A program made the position numbers and the translations under genes. Of a DNA stretch of 64,000 nucleotides, positions 26,732-34,463 are shown in pieces; the stretch's first letter is position 1; every line of letters starts with the position of its first letter. Under the pieces are notes generated by a model, which searched no databases, had not been told where the DNA came from, and was given only the letters and a program-made list of their open reading frames with translations. The stretch spans positions 2,734,501 through 2,798,500 of the forward strand of contig NZ_CP072842.1 in NCBI RefSeq assembly GCF_017948305.1. Reading direction: 5' to 3'. The stretch is from Faecalibacter bovis. Lineage in GTDB: Bacteria; Bacteroidota; Bacteroidia; Flavobacteriales; Weeksellaceae.

Positions 26732-27757
26732 TTATTTGTTAGAAACGCCAGCACTTTCAAAACTTGCCATTTCATTAAGAAAAGCAACTGCGTTTTCAAG
26801 AATTGGATAAGCCAAGGCACAACCTGTTCCCTCTCCTACTCTCATTTCTAAATTTAATAAAGGTTTTACTTCTAAATAATTCAACATTTTTTGATGCCCA
26901 ATTTCGTTACTGTTATGACAAAAAACTGCATAATCTTTTATTTCTGGATACAAAGCTTGAGCTACTAAAAATGCACTTGTCGCAATAAATCCATCAACCA
27001 AAATTAACATCCTGTTTTTGTATGCAGCTACCATTGCTCCACATATCTGCGCAACTTCAAAACCACCATACGTTTGAAGAATTTCCATTGGATCGTTTAA
27101 AGCGCCATGAAATTCATTAGCTTCAGATAACAGTTCAATTTTTTTATTTAATTGTTCTTCATCTAAACCAGTTCCTCTACCAATACAATCTTTTAAAGGG
27201 ATTTTTGTGATATGATGCATAATCATAGATGCAGAAGATGTGTTTCCAATTCCCATTTCACCGAAACCTATAACATTACAATCATTATCGGCAACTTGAT
27301 TTACAACTTGAGCAGATTTTTCTAAACACAAATCCAATTCATTTCGAGTCATTGCTTTCTCGACAATGAAATTTTTAGTTCCGAAATTTATTTTATTGTC
27401 AATTAATCCATCTACGATTCCAAAATCATAATTTACTCCTGCATCAATGGTTAAAAAATCAAGTTTATTTTGTTTACAAAAAACCGTTACTGCAGCACCA
27501 CCCTGAACAATATTCATAACCATTTGAAAAGTAACTTCTGGTGGATATGCGCTAACTCCTGCTTTTGCAACACCGTGGTCACCAGCAAACAATAAAATCG
27601 TAGGATTAATTAACTGAGGAGTTAATGATTGTTGAACCATACCAATTTGGAAAGCTAATTTTTCTAATAATCCTAACGCTCCTAAAGGTTTAGTTTTTAA
27701 ATCAATTTTTTGTTGTAATTGTTCGTTTAATGTAGTAGTAGTTGAATTTTGTATCAT
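26732..27757 (-). CDS. cobT: nicotinate-nucleotide:dimethylbenzimidazole phosphoribosyltransferase
   Basis: 341 residues. The motif series LLFAGDHGVAKAGVSAYP, NIVQGGAAVTVFC, GFGEMGIGNTSSAS and the C-terminal RVGEGTGCALA, with the catalytic glutamate near residue 309, is CobT. It makes alpha-ribazole phosphate from nicotinate mononucleotide and a lower-ligand base, allowing salvaged cobinamide to be completed. It is first of the cobT-cobS-cobC operon. The 320 bases upstream show no B12 box; a terminator closes the riboswitch-controlled gene upstream. Confidence 0.95.
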   Translation of the reverse strand: MIQNSTTTTLNEQLQQKIDLKTKPLGALGLLEKLAFQIGMVQQSLTPQLINPTILLFAGDHGVAKAGVSAYPPEVTFQMVMNIVQGGAAVTVFCKQNKLDFLTIDAGVNYDFGIVDGLIDNKINFGTKNFIVEKAMTRNELDLCLEKSAQVVNQVADNDCNVIGFGEMGIGNTSSASMIMHHITKIPLKDCIGRGTGLDEEQLNKKIELLSEANEFHGALNDPMEILQTYGGFEVAQICGAMVAAYKNRMLILVDGFIATSAFLVAQALYPEIKDYAVFCHNSNEIGHQKMLNYLEVKPLLNLEMRVGEGTGCALAYPILENAVAFLNEMASFESAGVSNK

Positions 27758-28030
27758 TTTATTTTAATAAATTATTTTGATTTAAAGCAAGAAATTCTAT
27801 TTAAGAAATAACGTAATTTCCTAATTGAACTTGAGAAATTTCAGTATAATTTTATTCAGTTTTGCAACTTATTTATATAGCTAAAATTGCGTTAAAATAA
27901 GTGCTTACCACAAACTTTTTAATGGGTTTTCTGTTGCACTATACTAAAAAAGTAAAAATATAAATTATTTTCAATTTTAGAAAACCTCTACATTATCTTA
28001 ATATTAAGATTCAGAATTGAAGCTTTTTCA
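27758..28030. other. intergenic region upstream of cobT
   Basis: The 320-base gap 27758-28077 includes the terminator at 28031-28061. The rest is AT-rich. I searched for B12-box sequences on both strands and found none, and saw no exact TAnnTTTG box toward cobT. Confidence 0.5.
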
Positions 28031-28061
28031 ATAAAAAGACCTCAACAAAATTGTTGAGGTC
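28031..28061 (-). terminator. terminator after the riboswitch-controlled surface protein
   Basis: GACCTCAACAA and TTGTTGAGGTC form a perfect 11-bp stem (28038-28061); on the minus strand it is followed by TTTTT. It separates this gene from cobT. Confidence 0.9.
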
Positions 28062-28077
28062 ATTATAAAAAGTAAAA

Positions 28078-29178
28078 TTATTTTTTAATCAATTTTTTAA
28101 TTTCTTTTGTTTGATTTGTTGATACTTCTAAATAGTAAATTCCTGAAGGCAAATCATTTAATTGAATTTTAGATATCTTCGCCGTTTTTACTAAAGTACC
28201 TATTGTTGTATAAATTTTAATTTCTTTAATCGTTTCCTTTGAATCTACAATAACATAATCTGATGTTGGGTTTGGATAAACTTGTAATGTAGATGTTGTA
28301 AAATCGTTCGTATTTAAATTTTGCATTTCTTGCGGAATATATGGTCTTCTTGTACCAAAACTAATTCCTAACCATTGGTTATCGGTTAATGTAAAACTTG
28401 ATGTATTTTCTTGAGTAATCCAATTCGATAAATCTGTACCTTTAAACAAATTAGGTGTAGTTGTTTGCGAATAATTACCTAATTGTAAAGCTGAAATTTG
28501 ATCATTTGTAATTGAAAAAGTAAAATCCGTATTGTTCTCTTGAATTAACTGTAATGCTTGTTCTACTGTAATATTTCCATTGTAATTGATTCCAACAACA
28601 AAAGAATCAGCAACATTATTCGTATCAGTTCCAAAATCGATAATAACTAAACTGTTATTTGTACCAGTACCAATCCAAGAAGATACATAATTTTGCTGTA
28701 ACCATTGTGAAGAATATGCTGGAATTGGTGCTACAGGAGCATCTGGACCTGGAACATTCATTCCAAAACCATATGTAGCCGCGTACCAATAACCATCTAT
28801 AAGATCAGATGTCATCCAACCTCCCATATTCCAATTTTGTCCATCTCTCGAATACCATAAACTCCAATAGTCATATTCTTGTTCATACGAATCATGGTGA
28901 TTAAAAGCAATTCGATCTAAAAATCCACTTGATTGTTCATAAGTAAAGTTTGGCTCATAATCAGCAATTAACTGTAACATTTCTGTACCATTAATTGGTT
29001 CATCTTGATCAAATCTTATTCCCCAGACATATGAACGATCATCAGTTCCGTCCTTGAAATCAGCAATGAAGTAAGCCGTTCGATCTCCTTCGCCCACATA
29101 GAATTTTACATCATTCGTAGTAAATTGAGCAAAGCTACAAATGGAAAAAAATAAGAATAACAATGTAATTCTTTTCAT
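28078..29178 (-). CDS. T9SS-exported protein with duplicated domain, under a cobalamin riboswitch
   Basis: 366 residues. A signal peptide (1-17, CSFAQ) and a type A T9SS sorting domain (about 297-366, starting LQVYPNPTSDY) show export to the surface or medium. Between them are two copies of one unit: residues 28-140 and 169-279. Aligned features are GEGDRTAYFIADF versus GTGTNNSLVIIDF, YVWGIRF versus FVVGINY, TEMLQLIADYEPNFTY versus EQALQLIQENNTDFTF, then an NW...W...G end in both. A cobalamin riboswitch precedes the gene and cobT/S/C follow. I do not recognise a named family. Binding of cobalamin or cobinamide for uptake is the likely role (inference from regulation and location). No enzyme motif is visible. 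Confidence 0.85.
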   Translation of the reverse strand: MKRITLLFLFFSICSFAQFTTNDVKFYVGEGDRTAYFIADFKDGTDDRSYVWGIRFDQDEPINGTEMLQLIADYEPNFTYEQSSGFLDRIAFNHHDSYEQEYDYWSLWYSRDGQNWNMGGWMTSDLIDGYWYAATYGFGMNVPGPDAPVAPIPAYSSQWLQQNYVSSWIGTGTNNSLVIIDFGTDTNNVADSFVVGINYNGNITVEQALQLIQENNTDFTFSITNDQISALQLGNYSQTTTPNLFKGTDLSNWITQENTSSFTLTDNQWLGISFGTRRPYIPQEMQNLNTNDFTTSTLQVYPNPTSDYVIVDSKETIKEIKIYTTIGTLVKTAKISKIQLNDLPSGIYYLEVSTNQTKEIKKLIKK

Positions 29179-29190
29179 ATAATAATAATT

Positions 29191-29214
29191 TAAAGTTTAA
29201 CTCCCGAAACTTTA
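29191..29214 (-). promoter_or_regulatory. hairpin between riboswitch and start codon
   Basis: TAAAGTTT and AAACTTTA are perfect 8-base arms around AACTCCCG, ending 12 bases before the start codon. It has no T run, so it may act on translation initiation as an expression platform rather than as a terminator (inference). Confidence 0.45.
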
Positions 29215-29261
29215 GCGTACGAAAAGCTGATGCAGAACGTATGATAAAAAGTTGATGAATA

Positions 29262-29410
29262 ATGGCAGGTCTCCTGACTTGCATCTTATTAATTCCCTTC
29301 CCAGATCGACTTCCAGTGGGTGATATAATTAATAAGTTTGATAGCTTACAGTTGCGGGTACAGCTCGTGATTCACACACGATTCCCTTTTCATAGACAAT
29401 AATTGTCTAA
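29262..29410 (-). ncRNA. cobalamin (adenosylcobalamin-type) riboswitch
   Basis: Reading the minus strand, the conserved blocks occur in order: AAGGGAAT, GTACCCGCAACTGTAAG, CCACTGG, GGGAAGG and AAGTCAGGAGACCTGCC (the B12 box region at 29264-29280). The arms CTTATTAAT and ATTAATAAG give an internal helix. A small palindrome AGACAAT/ATTGTCT sits at the 5' end (29394-29408). It controls the T9SS-exported protein gene at 28078-29178 and is expected to lower expression when B12 is plentiful. Confidence 0.95.
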
Positions 29411-29423
29411 CCAAAATCGACGG

Positions 29424-29431
29424 CAAATATA
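29424..29431 (-). promoter_or_regulatory. -7 box for the riboswitch transcript
   Basis: CAAATATA on the plus strand reads TATATTTG on the minus strand, placing transcription start near 29418, just before the riboswitch. No clear -33 TTG. Confidence 0.6.
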
Positions 29432-30134: not shown

Positions 30135-33100
30135 ATGTTAAATAAAATCATTGATTTTTCAATCAAGAATAAATTCATCGTAGGTTTATTTACGCTTGCT
30201 TTGTTAATTTTTGGGATTTTCGAAGCGACTAAATTACCTATGGATGCACAACCTGATATTACCTCAAATCAGGTTCAAATTATTACAGTTGCTCCTTCTT
30301 TTGGAGCAGAAGATATCGAACGTTTGGTTACATTTCCTATCGAACAAGCCAATTCGAACATTGCTGGAATTTCAGAAATTCGTAGTTTTTCACGTTTCGG
30401 TTTATCTTTAGTTACCATAGTTTTCGATGACGATACGGATGTTTTTTGGGCACGACAGCAAGTAAGCGAACGGTTAGCTCAAGTTAAAAGCGAAATTCCA
30501 GAAGGAATTGGCGAACCACAAATGGGACCGATTTCAACAGGTTTGGGAGAAATTTATCAATATGTAGTTCGTCCCGCTGATGGATATGAAGATCAATACG
30601 ACGAAACCGAATTACGCACCATTCAAGATTGGATCGTTCGTCGTCAATTATTAGGTGTTCCTGGAGTTGCTGATGTCAGTAGTTTTGGTGGAAAATTAAA
30701 ACAATTCGAAATCGGAATTAATCCACAACAATTACAAGCGTTTAACTTAACTATTAATGATGTTTTCGAAGCGTTAAGCGCGAATAATCAAAATACAGGT
30801 GGAGCTTATATCGAAAAAGGTCCAACTTCATTATTTATTCGTTCCGAAGGATTAATTGGTTCTATCAAGGATATTGAAAATATTGTCGTTAAACAATCAG
30901 GAAGTGGAACACCAATCTTAATGCGTGATGTAGCCGAAGTTAAAACAGGTTTCGCAACACGATATGGTGCAATGACGTATAACGATAAAGGAGAAGTTTC
31001 TGGTGCAATCGTAATGATGCTAAAAGGTGCAAATGCGCAAGAAGTTGTTAAGAATGTACAGAAGAGAATCGAAGAAATTAAGAAAACTTTACCCGAAGGA
31101 ATTGTCATAGAACCTTTTTTAGACCGTAAAAAAATGGTAGATAATACCATTTCAACAGTTCAAACCAACTTATTAGAAGGTGCATTAATTGTAGTTTTCA
31201 TCTTAGTAATTTTCTTAGGAAATGCAAGAGCTGGAATTATAGTAGCCACTGTTATTCCGCTTTCATTACTATTTGCCATCATCATGATGAACTTGTTTGG
31301 AGTTGGAGGAAATTTGATGAGTATGGGTGCTTTAGACTTTGGATTAATTGTAGATGGTGCAGTAATTATTGTTGAAGCTGTTATGCATCAACTCGCTCAT
31401 AGTAAAAAGTTTGGATTGAAAAATAAATTATCTCAAAAAGAGATGGATCAAACGGTTGGAGAATCCGCTAAGAAAATGGTGAATTCTGCTGTTTTTGGCC
31501 AGATTATTATCTTAATTGTTTATTTACCAATATTTAGTTTACAAGGTATCGAAGGAAAAATGTTCAAACCAATGGCGCAAACCGTTGCTTTTGCATTAGT
31601 TGGTGCATTTATTTTATCCTTGACTTATGTACCGATGATGTCGAGTATTTTATTAAGCCGTAAAAAGAAAGAAAAACCAAATCTTTCAGATCGCGTAATG
31701 GCAAAAATTGAGGTATTTCATCAAAAATATTTAATCAAAGCTTTAAAAATAAGAACGATTATTTTAACTATTGTTATTTCCTTATTTGCTGTTGCTGTCT
31801 TTGTTATGTCACGTTTAGGTGGAGAATTTATTCCAGCTTTAGAGGAAGGAGATTTTGCCGTTGAAGCACGTATTTTACCAGGAAGTAATATTTCTACAAC
31901 CATTGAATATACAACGAAAGCAGCCAAAATACTGAAAGAACGTTTCCCTGAAGTTGAAATGGTGGTAACAAAAATTGGTAGTGGTGAAATTCCGACCGAG
32001 CCAATGCCAATGGATGCTGGAGACATGATAATCGTTCTGAAACCAAAAAAAGAATGGACTTCTGCAACAACTTTCCCTGAATTATCGGAAAAAATGCAAA
32101 AAGAATTGGAAGAAATTCCTGGTTTATCAGTGAGTTTCCAATTCCCAGTTCAAATGCGTTTTAATGAGTTAATGACAGGTGCAAAACAAGATGTGGTAAT
32201 TAAAATTTTCGGAGAAGATTTAGATAAATTAGTCGAAAATGCGCAAAAAATTGGTAAAATCATCAATTCGGTTGAAGGAACAGATAATTTATACATCGAA
32301 CCTGTAAATGGGATTCCGCAAGTTGTTATCGAATTTAATCGTGCGCTAATTGCTCAATATGGATTGTCTATCGGAGAAGCTAATCGAATCGTGAATATGG
32401 CTTTTGCTGGTCAATCAACTGGTCAAGTTTTCGAAGGAGAAAAACGTTTTGATTTAGTGGTTCGATTAGCACAAGATAAACGAGCAAATATCGAAGACAT
32501 TCGAAACTTATTAATTCCTATGCCATCTGGAACACAAATTCCTTTGAGTCAATTAGCGAAAGTAGATTATAAAAATACGCCGAATCAAATTCAGCGCGAA
32601 GATGCGAAACGTCGAATCGTGATTGGATTTAATGTAAAAGGTCGAGATATTGAAAGCGTAGTAAAAGAAGTACAACAAAAAGTAGATGCAAAAGTTAAAT
32701 TACCAACTGGTTATTACACAACCTACGGCGGTGCATTCGAAAACTTAAATCAAGCGAAAGCTCGTTTAGGAATCGCGGTTCCAGTAGCTTTAGTTTTAAT
32801 TTTCGTTTTATTATACTTTGCTTTCAAATCCATCAAAGAAAGTTTATTAATCTATACGGCTATTCCATTATCGTCAATTGGTGGAGTTTTATTTTTAGCT
32901 GCGCGTGATATGCCTTTTAGTATCAGTGCGGGTGTTGGATTTATCGCTCTTTTTGGAATTGCGGTTTTAAACGGAATCGTTTTAATTTCTGAATACAATC
33001 GTTTACGAGATCACGGAATCAAAAATACAACTCGAATCGTTGTCATGGGTACAAGAACTCGTTTACGTCCTGTTTTAATGACTGCTGCAGTTGCCTCGTT

Positions 33101-34463
33101 AGGTTTCTTACCTATGGCGATAAGTAATGGTTCTGGAGCCGAAGTTCAACGTCCATTAGCAACAGTTGTAATTGGTGGTTTATTAGGAGCCACATTTTTA
33201 ACCTTATTTGTCTTACCAATCTTATATGTCATGTTCGAACATATTCAATTTAAAAAGAAACGTAGAAACAAAAAAGCGATTTCTACAGCTCTAATAATTG
33301 CTTTTGCATTTTTAGGAACTACTGCTCACGCACAAGAAAGAATGTCTTTTGAAGAAGTTGTGAAATTAGCGGAAGTGAATAATTTAGAAGTTAAACAAGC
33401 GGAATTAAATTCATTGTATCACGAAAAAAATGTCTTTGCGAATCGTTCGTTAGATCCGTTAGATATTTCTGCTGAATTTGGTCAAGTGAATTCGAATCAA
33501 TTTGATAATAAAATTACAGTTGCTCAAAATTTTCAATTTCCTGTGGTTTTTAAACGTCAGAAAGCATTAAATGAACAAATGATTAATGTTTCAAAAACGA
33601 ATGAAAAATTAACGAAAATTGAAGTTAAACAACGTTTGGCGAATGTGTATGTGTTGATGCAGAATTATGAATCTCAACGTGAATTATTGAAAGAAAACGA
33701 ATCAATTTATCAGCAATTTTTAGATAAAGCAAATTTACGTTTAAAGAAAGGAGAATCGAACCGAAGTGAAGTTTCGACTGCTATTATTCAATTAAAATCG
33801 ATTCAAAATCAAATTAAATTAATTGATGTGGAATTAGAAAATTCATCTCGTAAAATTCAATATTTAGCGAATACGACTTCTAAAATTTATCCAATTCAAT
33901 CGGATATTAATTGGTATGATATGAACTTGAATACTATTTCAACTCATCATCCTATTCTAAAATTAGCAGAAGAAACGATTCAAACTTCAACATTAGAAAC
34001 TGAAGTTGAAAAATCGAAGAAAATTCCAACTTTTTCAGTTGGATATTCCAACCAAAGCTTCTCAGATTTAGATCAAAATCGTTACAATTCTTTCCAAATT
34101 GGAGTAGGATTACCAATTTTTAATCGTGGGATTAATTCATCCATCGAAGCGTCAAAAATTAAAGTGAATATCGCGAAACAAAATTATTCGTTACAACAAG
34201 CAAAAATGCAACAAGATTTAGATGTGGTAAGAAATCAAATCAATGCGTATGATGAAATTGTTTCTGATTTTGAACAAACGCAAATTCCAGCATCGCATGA
34301 TTTACAGAAAACTATTAATCATCAATTATTAGAAGGAGAAATTAACTTTTTGGATTGGGTAATTTTGAATAATCAAATCATCGATGTGAAAACAAAATTT
34401 TTAGAAGCCAAAAACTTACGTGATCAGGCAAATGCCGCAATGACTTATTTTACTGCACAATAA
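30135..34463 (+). CDS. CzcA-type RND metal pump fused to a TolC/CzcC-like outer-membrane protein
   Basis: 1442 residues. Residues 1-1045 are a full heavy-metal RND pump with 12 predicted helices; the proton-relay helix DFGLIVDGAVIIVE has Asp401, Asp407 and Glu414, matching CzcA Asp402/Asp408/Glu415, which points to divalent cations (Zn, Co, Cd or Ni) rather than Cu/Ag. Residues 1067-1442 are an outer-membrane efflux protein with long coiled helices (MSFEEVVKLAEVNNLEV opening). The joint, KKRRNKKAISTALIIAFAFLG to TTAHAQE, looks like a signal peptide with an AHA|QE cleavage site after residue 1066. The stop overlaps the adaptor's ATG (TAATG). Confidence 0.92.
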   Translation: MLNKIIDFSIKNKFIVGLFTLALLIFGIFEATKLPMDAQPDITSNQVQIITVAPSFGAEDIERLVTFPIEQANSNIAGISEIRSFSRFGLSLVTIVFDDDTDVFWARQQVSERLAQVKSEIPEGIGEPQMGPISTGLGEIYQYVVRPADGYEDQYDETELRTIQDWIVRRQLLGVPGVADVSSFGGKLKQFEIGINPQQLQAFNLTINDVFEALSANNQNTGGAYIEKGPTSLFIRSEGLIGSIKDIENIVVKQSGSGTPILMRDVAEVKTGFATRYGAMTYNDKGEVSGAIVMMLKGANAQEVVKNVQKRIEEIKKTLPEGIVIEPFLDRKKMVDNTISTVQTNLLEGALIVVFILVIFLGNARAGIIVATVIPLSLLFAIIMMNLFGVGGNLMSMGALDFGLIVDGAVIIVEAVMHQLAHSKKFGLKNKLSQKEMDQTVGESAKKMVNSAVFGQIIILIVYLPIFSLQGIEGKMFKPMAQTVAFALVGAFILSLTYVPMMSSILLSRKKKEKPNLSDRVMAKIEVFHQKYLIKALKIRTIILTIVISLFAVAVFVMSRLGGEFIPALEEGDFAVEARILPGSNISTTIEYTTKAAKILKERFPEVEMVVTKIGSGEIPTEPMPMDAGDMIIVLKPKKEWTSATTFPELSEKMQKELEEIPGLSVSFQFPVQMRFNELMTGAKQDVVIKIFGEDLDKLVENAQKIGKIINSVEGTDNLYIEPVNGIPQVVIEFNRALIAQYGLSIGEANRIVNMAFAGQSTGQVFEGEKRFDLVVRLAQDKRANIEDIRNLLIPMPSGTQIPLSQLAKVDYKNTPNQIQREDAKRRIVIGFNVKGRDIESVVKEVQQKVDAKVKLPTGYYTTYGGAFENLNQAKARLGIAVPVALVLIFVLLYFAFKSIKESLLIYTAIPLSSIGGVLFLAARDMPFSISAGVGFIALFGIAVLNGIVLISEYNRLRDHGIKNTTRIVVMGTRTRLRPVLMTAAVASLGFLPMAISNGSGAEVQRPLATVVIGGLLGATFLTLFVLPILYVMFEHIQFKKKRRNKKAISTALIIAFAFLGTTAHAQERMSFEEVVKLAEVNNLEVKQAELNSLYHEKNVFANRSLDPLDISAEFGQVNSNQFDNKITVAQNFQFPVVFKRQKALNEQMINVSKTNEKLTKIEVKQRLANVYVLMQNYESQRELLKENESIYQQFLDKANLRLKKGESNRSEVSTAIIQLKSIQNQIKLIDVELENSSRKIQYLANTTSKIYPIQSDINWYDMNLNTISTHHPILKLAEETIQTSTLETEVEKSKKIPTFSVGYSNQSFSDLDQNRYNSFQIGVGLPIFNRGINSSIEASKIKVNIAKQNYSLQQAKMQQDLDVVRNQINAYDEIVSDFEQTQIPASHDLQKTINHQLLEGEINFLDWVILNNQIIDVKTKFLEAKNLRDQANAAMTYFTAQ

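Follow-up and report, generated by a model that had tools for sequence, protein, structure and literature searches.

What kind of protein is made from a gene that stands directly behind a cobalamin riboswitch and whose product, apart from a sorting tail, matches no known domain family? We addressed this question for a locus of Faecalibacter bovis, located in a stretch of 64,000 nucleotides of contig NZ_CP072842.1 (hereafter the window). The gene, which we call TCL (transcobalamin-like), encodes with good confidence a corrinoid-capture protein of the cell surface. It is probably a B12-catching surface protein of a kind undescribed in its group, where BtuK1 and BtuK2 are known here by description only.

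A cobalamin riboswitch precedes the TCL gene

The TCL gene is an open reading frame (ORF) of 366 aa with an ATG start on the minus strand (29178-28078), assigned to its family by profile. Directly upstream on the same strand lies a cobalamin riboswitch aptamer (RF00174; 29430-29247), found by cmscan with 110.9 bits (gathering score 31.5; E 6.4e-27) over the whole model (1-189 of 189); 68 bases separate its end from the gene start. An earlier note on this DNA had proposed a complete B12 riboswitch upstream of this gene at 28078-29431, and both the riboswitch and the coordinates, the latter to one base, were borne out. A chance match or artefact was ruled out by the score and by the recurrence of the riboswitch in relatives. 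The aptamer is 70% identical to the one at the Psychroflexus halocasei locus L109 (176 columns) and 57% to the btuB riboswitch of the same genome. Compared to two shorter cobT riboswitches from other genomes of the genus, the identity is 62% over 124 columns and 77% over 69 columns.

The protein starts with the hydrophobic sequence MKRITLLFLFFSICSFAQ, which ends in FAQ and looks by eye like a signal peptide (residues 1-17, then Gln; 29128-29178, minus strand). It is followed by unit 1 (residues 23-152; 28723-29112, minus strand), unit 2 (residues 164-289; 28312-28689, minus strand) and a type A sorting domain of the type IX secretion system (T9SS; residues 300-366; 28081-28281, minus strand). 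The sorting tail, which the earlier note had also recognised, scored above the cut-off with both PF18962 (44.3 bits) and TIGR04183 (43.7 bits). We take the InterPro entry IPR026444, mentioned below, to stand for a T9SS tail.

TCL genes are part of B12-uptake operons

The TCL body was found in 13 of 395 genomes of the class, F. bovis included. Among the other 12 genomes, the fetched locus harboured RF00174 in eight, the riboswitch was located further upstream, beyond one BtuB gene, in three (L067, L070 and L071) and one locus ran into a contig end. Furthermore, a pattern scan of a species-level collection yielded 54 TCL loci, mostly from uncultured Flavobacteriales or unplaced Bacteroidetes, and also from Crocinitomix, Mesonia profundi, P. 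halocasei, Bacteroidales, one Chitinophagales and one Saprospirales. In 50 of these loci the TCL gene is preceded on its own strand by an RF00174 match, 44 times within 700 bases and six times with btuB in between, compared to 0.02 loci expected by chance (a rough estimate from 49 genomes). Of the four remaining loci, three (L068, L108 and L117) run into contig ends, and the only genuine exception is L111. There, the TCL gene (L111:9869-11041) has no riboswitch in the 9.8 kb upstream and no adjoining btuB, and the single riboswitch of the genome was placed outside the locus. Riboswitches were placed by contig coordinates and short aptamer motifs; secondary placements L082, L097 and L105 failed the motif check and were dropped, and L113 was also excluded from alignment A9. 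As 38 of the 49 genomes searched hold a single RF00174 match (the filters lose some weak matches), the TCL operon seems to be the sole clear use of RF00174 in many of them.

Within 6.5 kb on the same strand, we found BtuB-like genes in 45, BtuG-like genes in 40 and C3, encoding a second T9SS-tailed protein, in 31 of the 54 loci. The gene orders are riboswitch-TCL-C3-BtuB-BtuG, riboswitch-TCL-BtuB-BtuG with or without C3 at the end, and riboswitch-BtuB-TCL-C3-BtuG. The BtuG-like profile (10 rows, including the BtuG-like protein of F. bovis) matches the BtuG structures 3dsm (7e-84) and 8blw (3e-58). BtuB in relatives was named by likeness to F. bovis BtuB (phmmer, blastp clusters); for two relatives' BtuB that were scanned, the best NCBIfam family was TIGR01779 with 73 and 83 bits, far under its cut-off of 599.7. 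Together, these data place the TCL gene in operons for B12 uptake across several orders of the phylum, and the link of homologues to B12, proposed earlier as a check, is thereby answered in the affirmative.

The T9SS tail is present in 54 of 55 TCL proteins scanned, and the number of units per protein ranges from one to four (L113, which contains runs of N, shows more partial matches). The relatives at L084, L091, L093, L115, L096 and L098 have extra N-terminal regions, and the N-terminal ~330 residues of the L084-type fusions are propeller-like by weak hints only. At L065:31-1941 (reverse), a riboswitch is followed by a truncated transcobalamin-like unit in frame with RHS-like sequence (by eye), through an assembly error or a rearrangement.

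The units are predicted to adopt a transcobalamin beta-domain fold

When the window protein was searched with a profile of 110 units, all of them from genomes other than its own, unit 1 was detected with E 1.9e-27 and unit 2 with E 2.4e-17 (units had E below 1e-15 and more than 100 residues; L113 was left out for its runs of N; search space 1e6). The internal duplication is thus real. The unit length of ~110 residues given in the earlier note was corrected to ~125, and unit 2 is strongly derived. Neither Pfam nor NCBIfam holds a known domain family for the units.

In the model of unit 1, strands 17-24 and 33-41 are followed by a helix (48-58), directly thereafter by a beta-hairpin (strands 62-67 and 70-76), and then by strands 87-94 and 115-122. 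A hairpin inserted after the helix defines the transcobalamin-like clade of the SLBB beta-grasp superfamily (PMC1796856; this paper, PMC6143338, PMC8941943 and PMC12751083 are cited here from excerpts), and the unit 1 model has this hairpin. When compared to solved structures, the B12-binding proteins and 3u7z scored much higher than ubiquitin, SAMP and MoaD, and the model is closer to transcobalamin, intrinsic factor and haptocorrin than to other beta-grasp folds. The modelling suggests that the TCL unit has the beta-grasp fold of the transcobalamin/intrinsic-factor beta domain, and not that of an unrelated enzyme. The 366 aa are taken up by two such units and the tail; the alpha domain is missing.

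At the sequence level, a PDB chain search with family alignment A1 returned only two weak odorant-binding-protein rows. No Pfam match to DUF4430 (PF14478) was obtained in the window protein, in 14 units or in 55 TCL proteins, and hhalign of family alignments A1 and A8 against the single DUF4430 sequence that was found gave nothing. A plasmid search for further DUF4430 sequences was empty, and a PDB search with the single one gave three weak unrelated rows. Likewise, no relatives were found in viral contigs and no match at E <= 0.001 in the viral fold library. As it has neither a profile match nor the alpha domain, TCL is not assigned to DUF4430 or transcobalamin; it is likened to them by predicted fold and context.

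Unit 2 is probably an old, derived form

In a tree of 115 units, which few columns support, unit 2 of the window groups with second-type units of L181, P. halocasei, M. profundi and L118 (loci L181, L109, L108 and L118; six rows, support 100/99, long stem of 1.28). Unit 1, itself on a long branch (1.18), groups with unit 1 of P. halocasei and M. profundi and two first-type units of L118 (five rows, 100/96). The L181 genome belongs to the same family as the window genome and to a different genus, and its unit 1 is placed elsewhere with weak support (86/67). Because the second-unit clade is kept in several species, unit 2 appears to be derived but of long standing, and not a product of recent decay, though it lacks the YWSTWS strand motif.

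Several glycines are conserved among the 110 units (positions 29, 31, 53, 85 and 97), and the window has Ser at 97; the two glycines that the transcobalamin-like clade keeps at set places of its fold may be among them. The GIGG loop is altered also in P. halocasei and L181 (by eye). At position 134 of the window protein (DNA ~28777-28779), 79% of the 110 units carry a Cys, within a GCSYTDF motif, and the window carries Ala.

A model for corrinoid capture and its alternatives

The riboswitch and operon context together with the predicted fold support the reading of TCL as a candidate for B12 capture at the surface. Cobalamin riboswitches switch genes off at plentiful B12 in Bacteroides (PMC6143338). 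At low cellular B12 the TCL riboswitch would be open and the protein would be produced. Sec and then the T9SS would export it, after which it would either stay on the cell surface or be shed. Its units may bind a corrinoid on the face formed by the post-helix hairpin and the following strands, and units in tandem could raise the avidity or clamp the ligand between them. The captured corrinoid could then be handed over to BtuG-BtuB, which in F. bovis would be made from a separate riboswitch-led operon, and the products of the neighbouring cobT-cobS-cobC genes may finish or remodel imported corrinoids. Because crystals of the isolated transcobalamin beta domain show it binding cyanocobalamin and cobinamide (PMC5599065), and the beta domain of such carriers is described as the first binder (PMC11107200), a beta-domain-only protein might by analogy plausibly capture corrinoids, with an affinity lower than that of full transcobalamin.

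A wider proposal, which we put forward tentatively and hold to be somewhat less probable than its opposite, is that tandem transcobalamin-type beta domains form a T9SS-exported Bacteroidota class found in several orders, and that this class, together with BtuB, BtuG and a T9SS partner resembling BtuH, makes up the whole machinery for uptake at the surface. In flavobacteria, unit 1 and the derived unit 2 would close over one corrinoid, unit 2 replacing the transcobalamin alpha domain.

The neighbourhood of the gene allows for a different ligand. Downstream of TCL, an intrinsic terminator (28061-28038, minus strand) with a 10-pair stem and a T-rich tail folds with a minimum free energy of -17.9 (z -6.18; 0 of 200 shuffles equally good). 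Beyond it, on the same strand, lie cobT, encoding the dimethylbenzimidazole (DMB) phosphoribosyltransferase (27757-26732; TIGR03160, 424.1 bits), cobS (26729-25938; TIGR00317, 115.7 bits, passing the cut-off of 110) and cobC, encoding alpha-ribazole phosphatase (25956-25405; TIGR03162, 162.8 bits, 0.1 bit below the NCBIfam cut-off of 162.9), an arrangement that had been read correctly before. A scan of 27650-28150 gave no further riboswitch ahead of cobT. The fold could be that of a transcobalamin beta domain whereas the true ligand is an incomplete or foreign corrinoid, such as cobinamide or other cobamides, which is salvaged via cobT-cobS-cobC and not taken up as B12. The directly downstream cob genes and the cobinamide binding of the transcobalamin beta domain are in line with this. 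So is the finding that cobT stands directly behind a riboswitch match in three of 28 loci from other genomes of the genus (62, 44 and 30 bits, the last below the cut-off; loci L124-L151, examined from a longer match list). However, the TCL gene accompanies btuB and btuG in most relatives and the terminator parts it from cobT in the window, which makes salvage unlikely as its role.

Slightly less probable still is that TCL serves the BtuB-BtuG surface complex as a scaffold or adaptor, holding its partners together without binding a corrinoid itself; BtuL of Bacteroides thetaiotaomicron would be a parallel. Beta-grasp units often serve protein contacts. Among the 110 units, no excess conservation of ligand-side residues was found, and unit 2 is derived, both of which would suit a scaffold, as would the report that the riboswitch-operon proteins BtuL and BtuK2 do not bind cobalamin (PMC12751083). 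Against this stand the structural comparison, in which unit 1 sides with the B12-binding proteins and 3u7z and not with ubiquitin, SAMP and MoaD, and the loci L109, L118 and L181, where TCL stands alone behind its riboswitch with no adjoining btuB, as in the window.

It is very improbable that the TCL gene of the window is decaying or a mere passenger between a riboswitch and cob genes: no two-unit protein turned up in the 13 further genomes of the genus, the branch of unit 1 is long and a motif has been lost, but the 366-aa frame is intact with start, sorting tail and terminator, and the two-unit form also stands behind a riboswitch in L181 and in P. halocasei (44-46% body identity).

Comparison to known B12-binding proteins

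Surface capture of corrinoids by TCL would have its closest counterpart in the beta domain of transcobalamin, intrinsic factor and haptocorrin, which is alike in predicted fold, in the order of elements (helix, then hairpin) and in being secreted, and would share a probable role in extracellular B12 capture. Unlike these carriers, TCL has no alpha/alpha-toroid, contains one to four tandem units, carries a T9SS tail, is bacterial and gives no sequence-level match. Zebrafish B12 proteins that consist of the beta domain only (Benoit et al. 2018, cited in PMC11107200, and known here by that citation only) also lack the alpha domain, but are animal proteins. Bacterial transcobalamin-like SLBB proteins were predicted in 2007 to scavenge B12, and their clade was placed in low-GC Gram-positives, planctomycetes and, less often, euryarchaea (PMC1796856). 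DUF4430 occurs in one of 395 genomes of the phylum, and TCL differs from it by the missing Pfam match and by its riboswitch-led btuB-btuG operons.

Described surface proteins of gut Bacteroides are BtuG (PMC6143338), BtuH (PMC8941943) and BtuJ, BtuK and BtuL (PMC12751083). BtuG (3dsm) and BtuH (7biz) are parts of B12 uptake encoded with btuB behind riboswitches, and genes like theirs share operons with TCL or its fusions. The view that TCL is no beta-propeller and resembles neither protein was confirmed. BtuG is a seven-bladed propeller lipoprotein, whereas TCL is a predicted beta-grasp cargo of the T9SS with no DUF5074 match; BtuH is a PKD lipoprotein with another B12-binding domain, whereas TCL has no PKD match and no BtuH chain was among its PDB sequence matches. 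BtuJ (DUF4465, IPR027828) is a B12 binder from riboswitch operons with an augmented jelly roll, in contrast to the beta-grasp model of TCL, which has no DUF4465 match. Some DUF4465 members have C-terminal extracellular-targeting motifs, and 229 of 824 DUF4465/BtuJ-type proteins carry IPR026444 (PMC12751083). The suggestion that T9SS export in place of a lipid anchor makes a new type of uptake component thus holds in part, as such targeting is not wholly new. The main risk to the novelty of TCL is BtuK: BtuK1 binds cobalamin (BtuK1/2 of B. thetaiotaomicron are BT_1486/BT_1487; PMC12751083), and the text excerpts describe the pair and give no fold. The word 'transcobalamin' is absent from the main texts of PMC12751083, PMC8941943 and PMC10404256. 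Among the literature matches listed (titles and abstract openings, with most subscription journals and bioRxiv outside the search), there was no transcobalamin-like T9SS protein in Bacteroidota.

TCL thus represents a family with the predicted transcobalamin beta-domain fold and no alpha domain, whose genes are directly linked to B12 riboswitches, BtuB and BtuG, and this in a phylum that has almost no DUF4430. If TCL binds B12, another independent fold would join BtuG, BtuH and BtuJ in the Bacteroidota capture set, the T9SS would be shown to act in micronutrient capture, and a tractable bacterial model would be at hand for the workings of a lone transcobalamin beta domain.

Fusion proteins and the partner protein C3

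Within the genus (14 genomes), the two-unit protein is present only in F. bovis, and three other genomes gave a partial match in a protein of ~755 aa. In it, a transcobalamin-like unit is joined to a DUF5074 propeller and a T9SS tail, the latter two confirmed for L158 (DUF5074 with 436 bits). Such fusions lie behind riboswitches at L158:4925-7189, L159:6522-8813, L160:6046-8310, L179:2776-5055, L180:2553-4811 and L182:10716-12989. In the genus the operon reads riboswitch-btuB-btuG-btuH-like; btuB, btuG and btuH-like genes also accompany the fusions of L180 and L182, and L179 has the btuH-like gene only. The btuH-like protein matches the BtuH and BtuG1 structures (2e-45 and 4e-69), and profile comparison ties the fusion-type unit to the TCL units with 98.6% probability (E 1e-15). 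At L178:11372-12160, a transcobalamin-like unit forms a separate lipoprotein-like protein of 262 aa (lipobox cysteine by eye) in a riboswitch-btuB-btuG-btuH-like operon, and a gene for a DUF4988/DUF5074 protein follows.

C3 (for instance L072:10960-11970, L101:14486-15499 and L115:2711-3694) has no Pfam family and a domain of ~230 residues with 60% mean column identity (13 rows). Its AlphaFold model is poor (pLDDT 64), Foldseek returned CBM32/discoidin folds alongside BtuH 7biz and BtuG1 8blw, and hhalign against BtuH-like domains covers only 43 columns with 63.8% probability. For these reasons, it is no more than a lead that C3 might represent the C-terminal domain of BtuH in a T9SS-exported form. 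A search of the F. bovis genome, run without a positive control, gave no C3.

Other riboswitches and neighbouring genes

The F. bovis genome (2.84 Mb, one contig) contains two strong RF00174 matches, the one in the window and one before btuB (599 aa), which is followed by a gene for a BtuG-like lipoprotein (352 aa). Among de novo families only cobJ was checked, and no match above its cut-off was found (27.2 vs 246.35 bits), which fits a dependence on imported corrinoids completed by cobT-cobS-cobC. Next to the riboswitch-TCL region, the plus strand of the window (30135-34463) carries an ORF of 1442 aa, which by eye we take to be a CusA/CzcA-type RND (resistance-nodulation-division) pump fused to an outer-membrane-factor-like C-terminal part.

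In another genome of the genus, a riboswitch match of 33.9 bits (L148:1-1641) precedes a metE-like gene (by eye); metE, encoding the B12-independent methionine synthase, is a classic B12-riboswitch target. A third RF00174 match in F. bovis is weak (28.1 bits, below the cut-off) and is better described as the adenosylcobalamin (AdoCbl) riboswitch RF01482 (L003:1523-1677; L122:3147-5058; ~838.9 kb), with 51.8 bits and a gathering score of 50. It is located upstream of acyl-CoA thioesterase-like and tryptophanase-like genes (named by eye), which are unusual targets for a B12 riboswitch, and a similar arrangement is found in another genome of the genus (L147).
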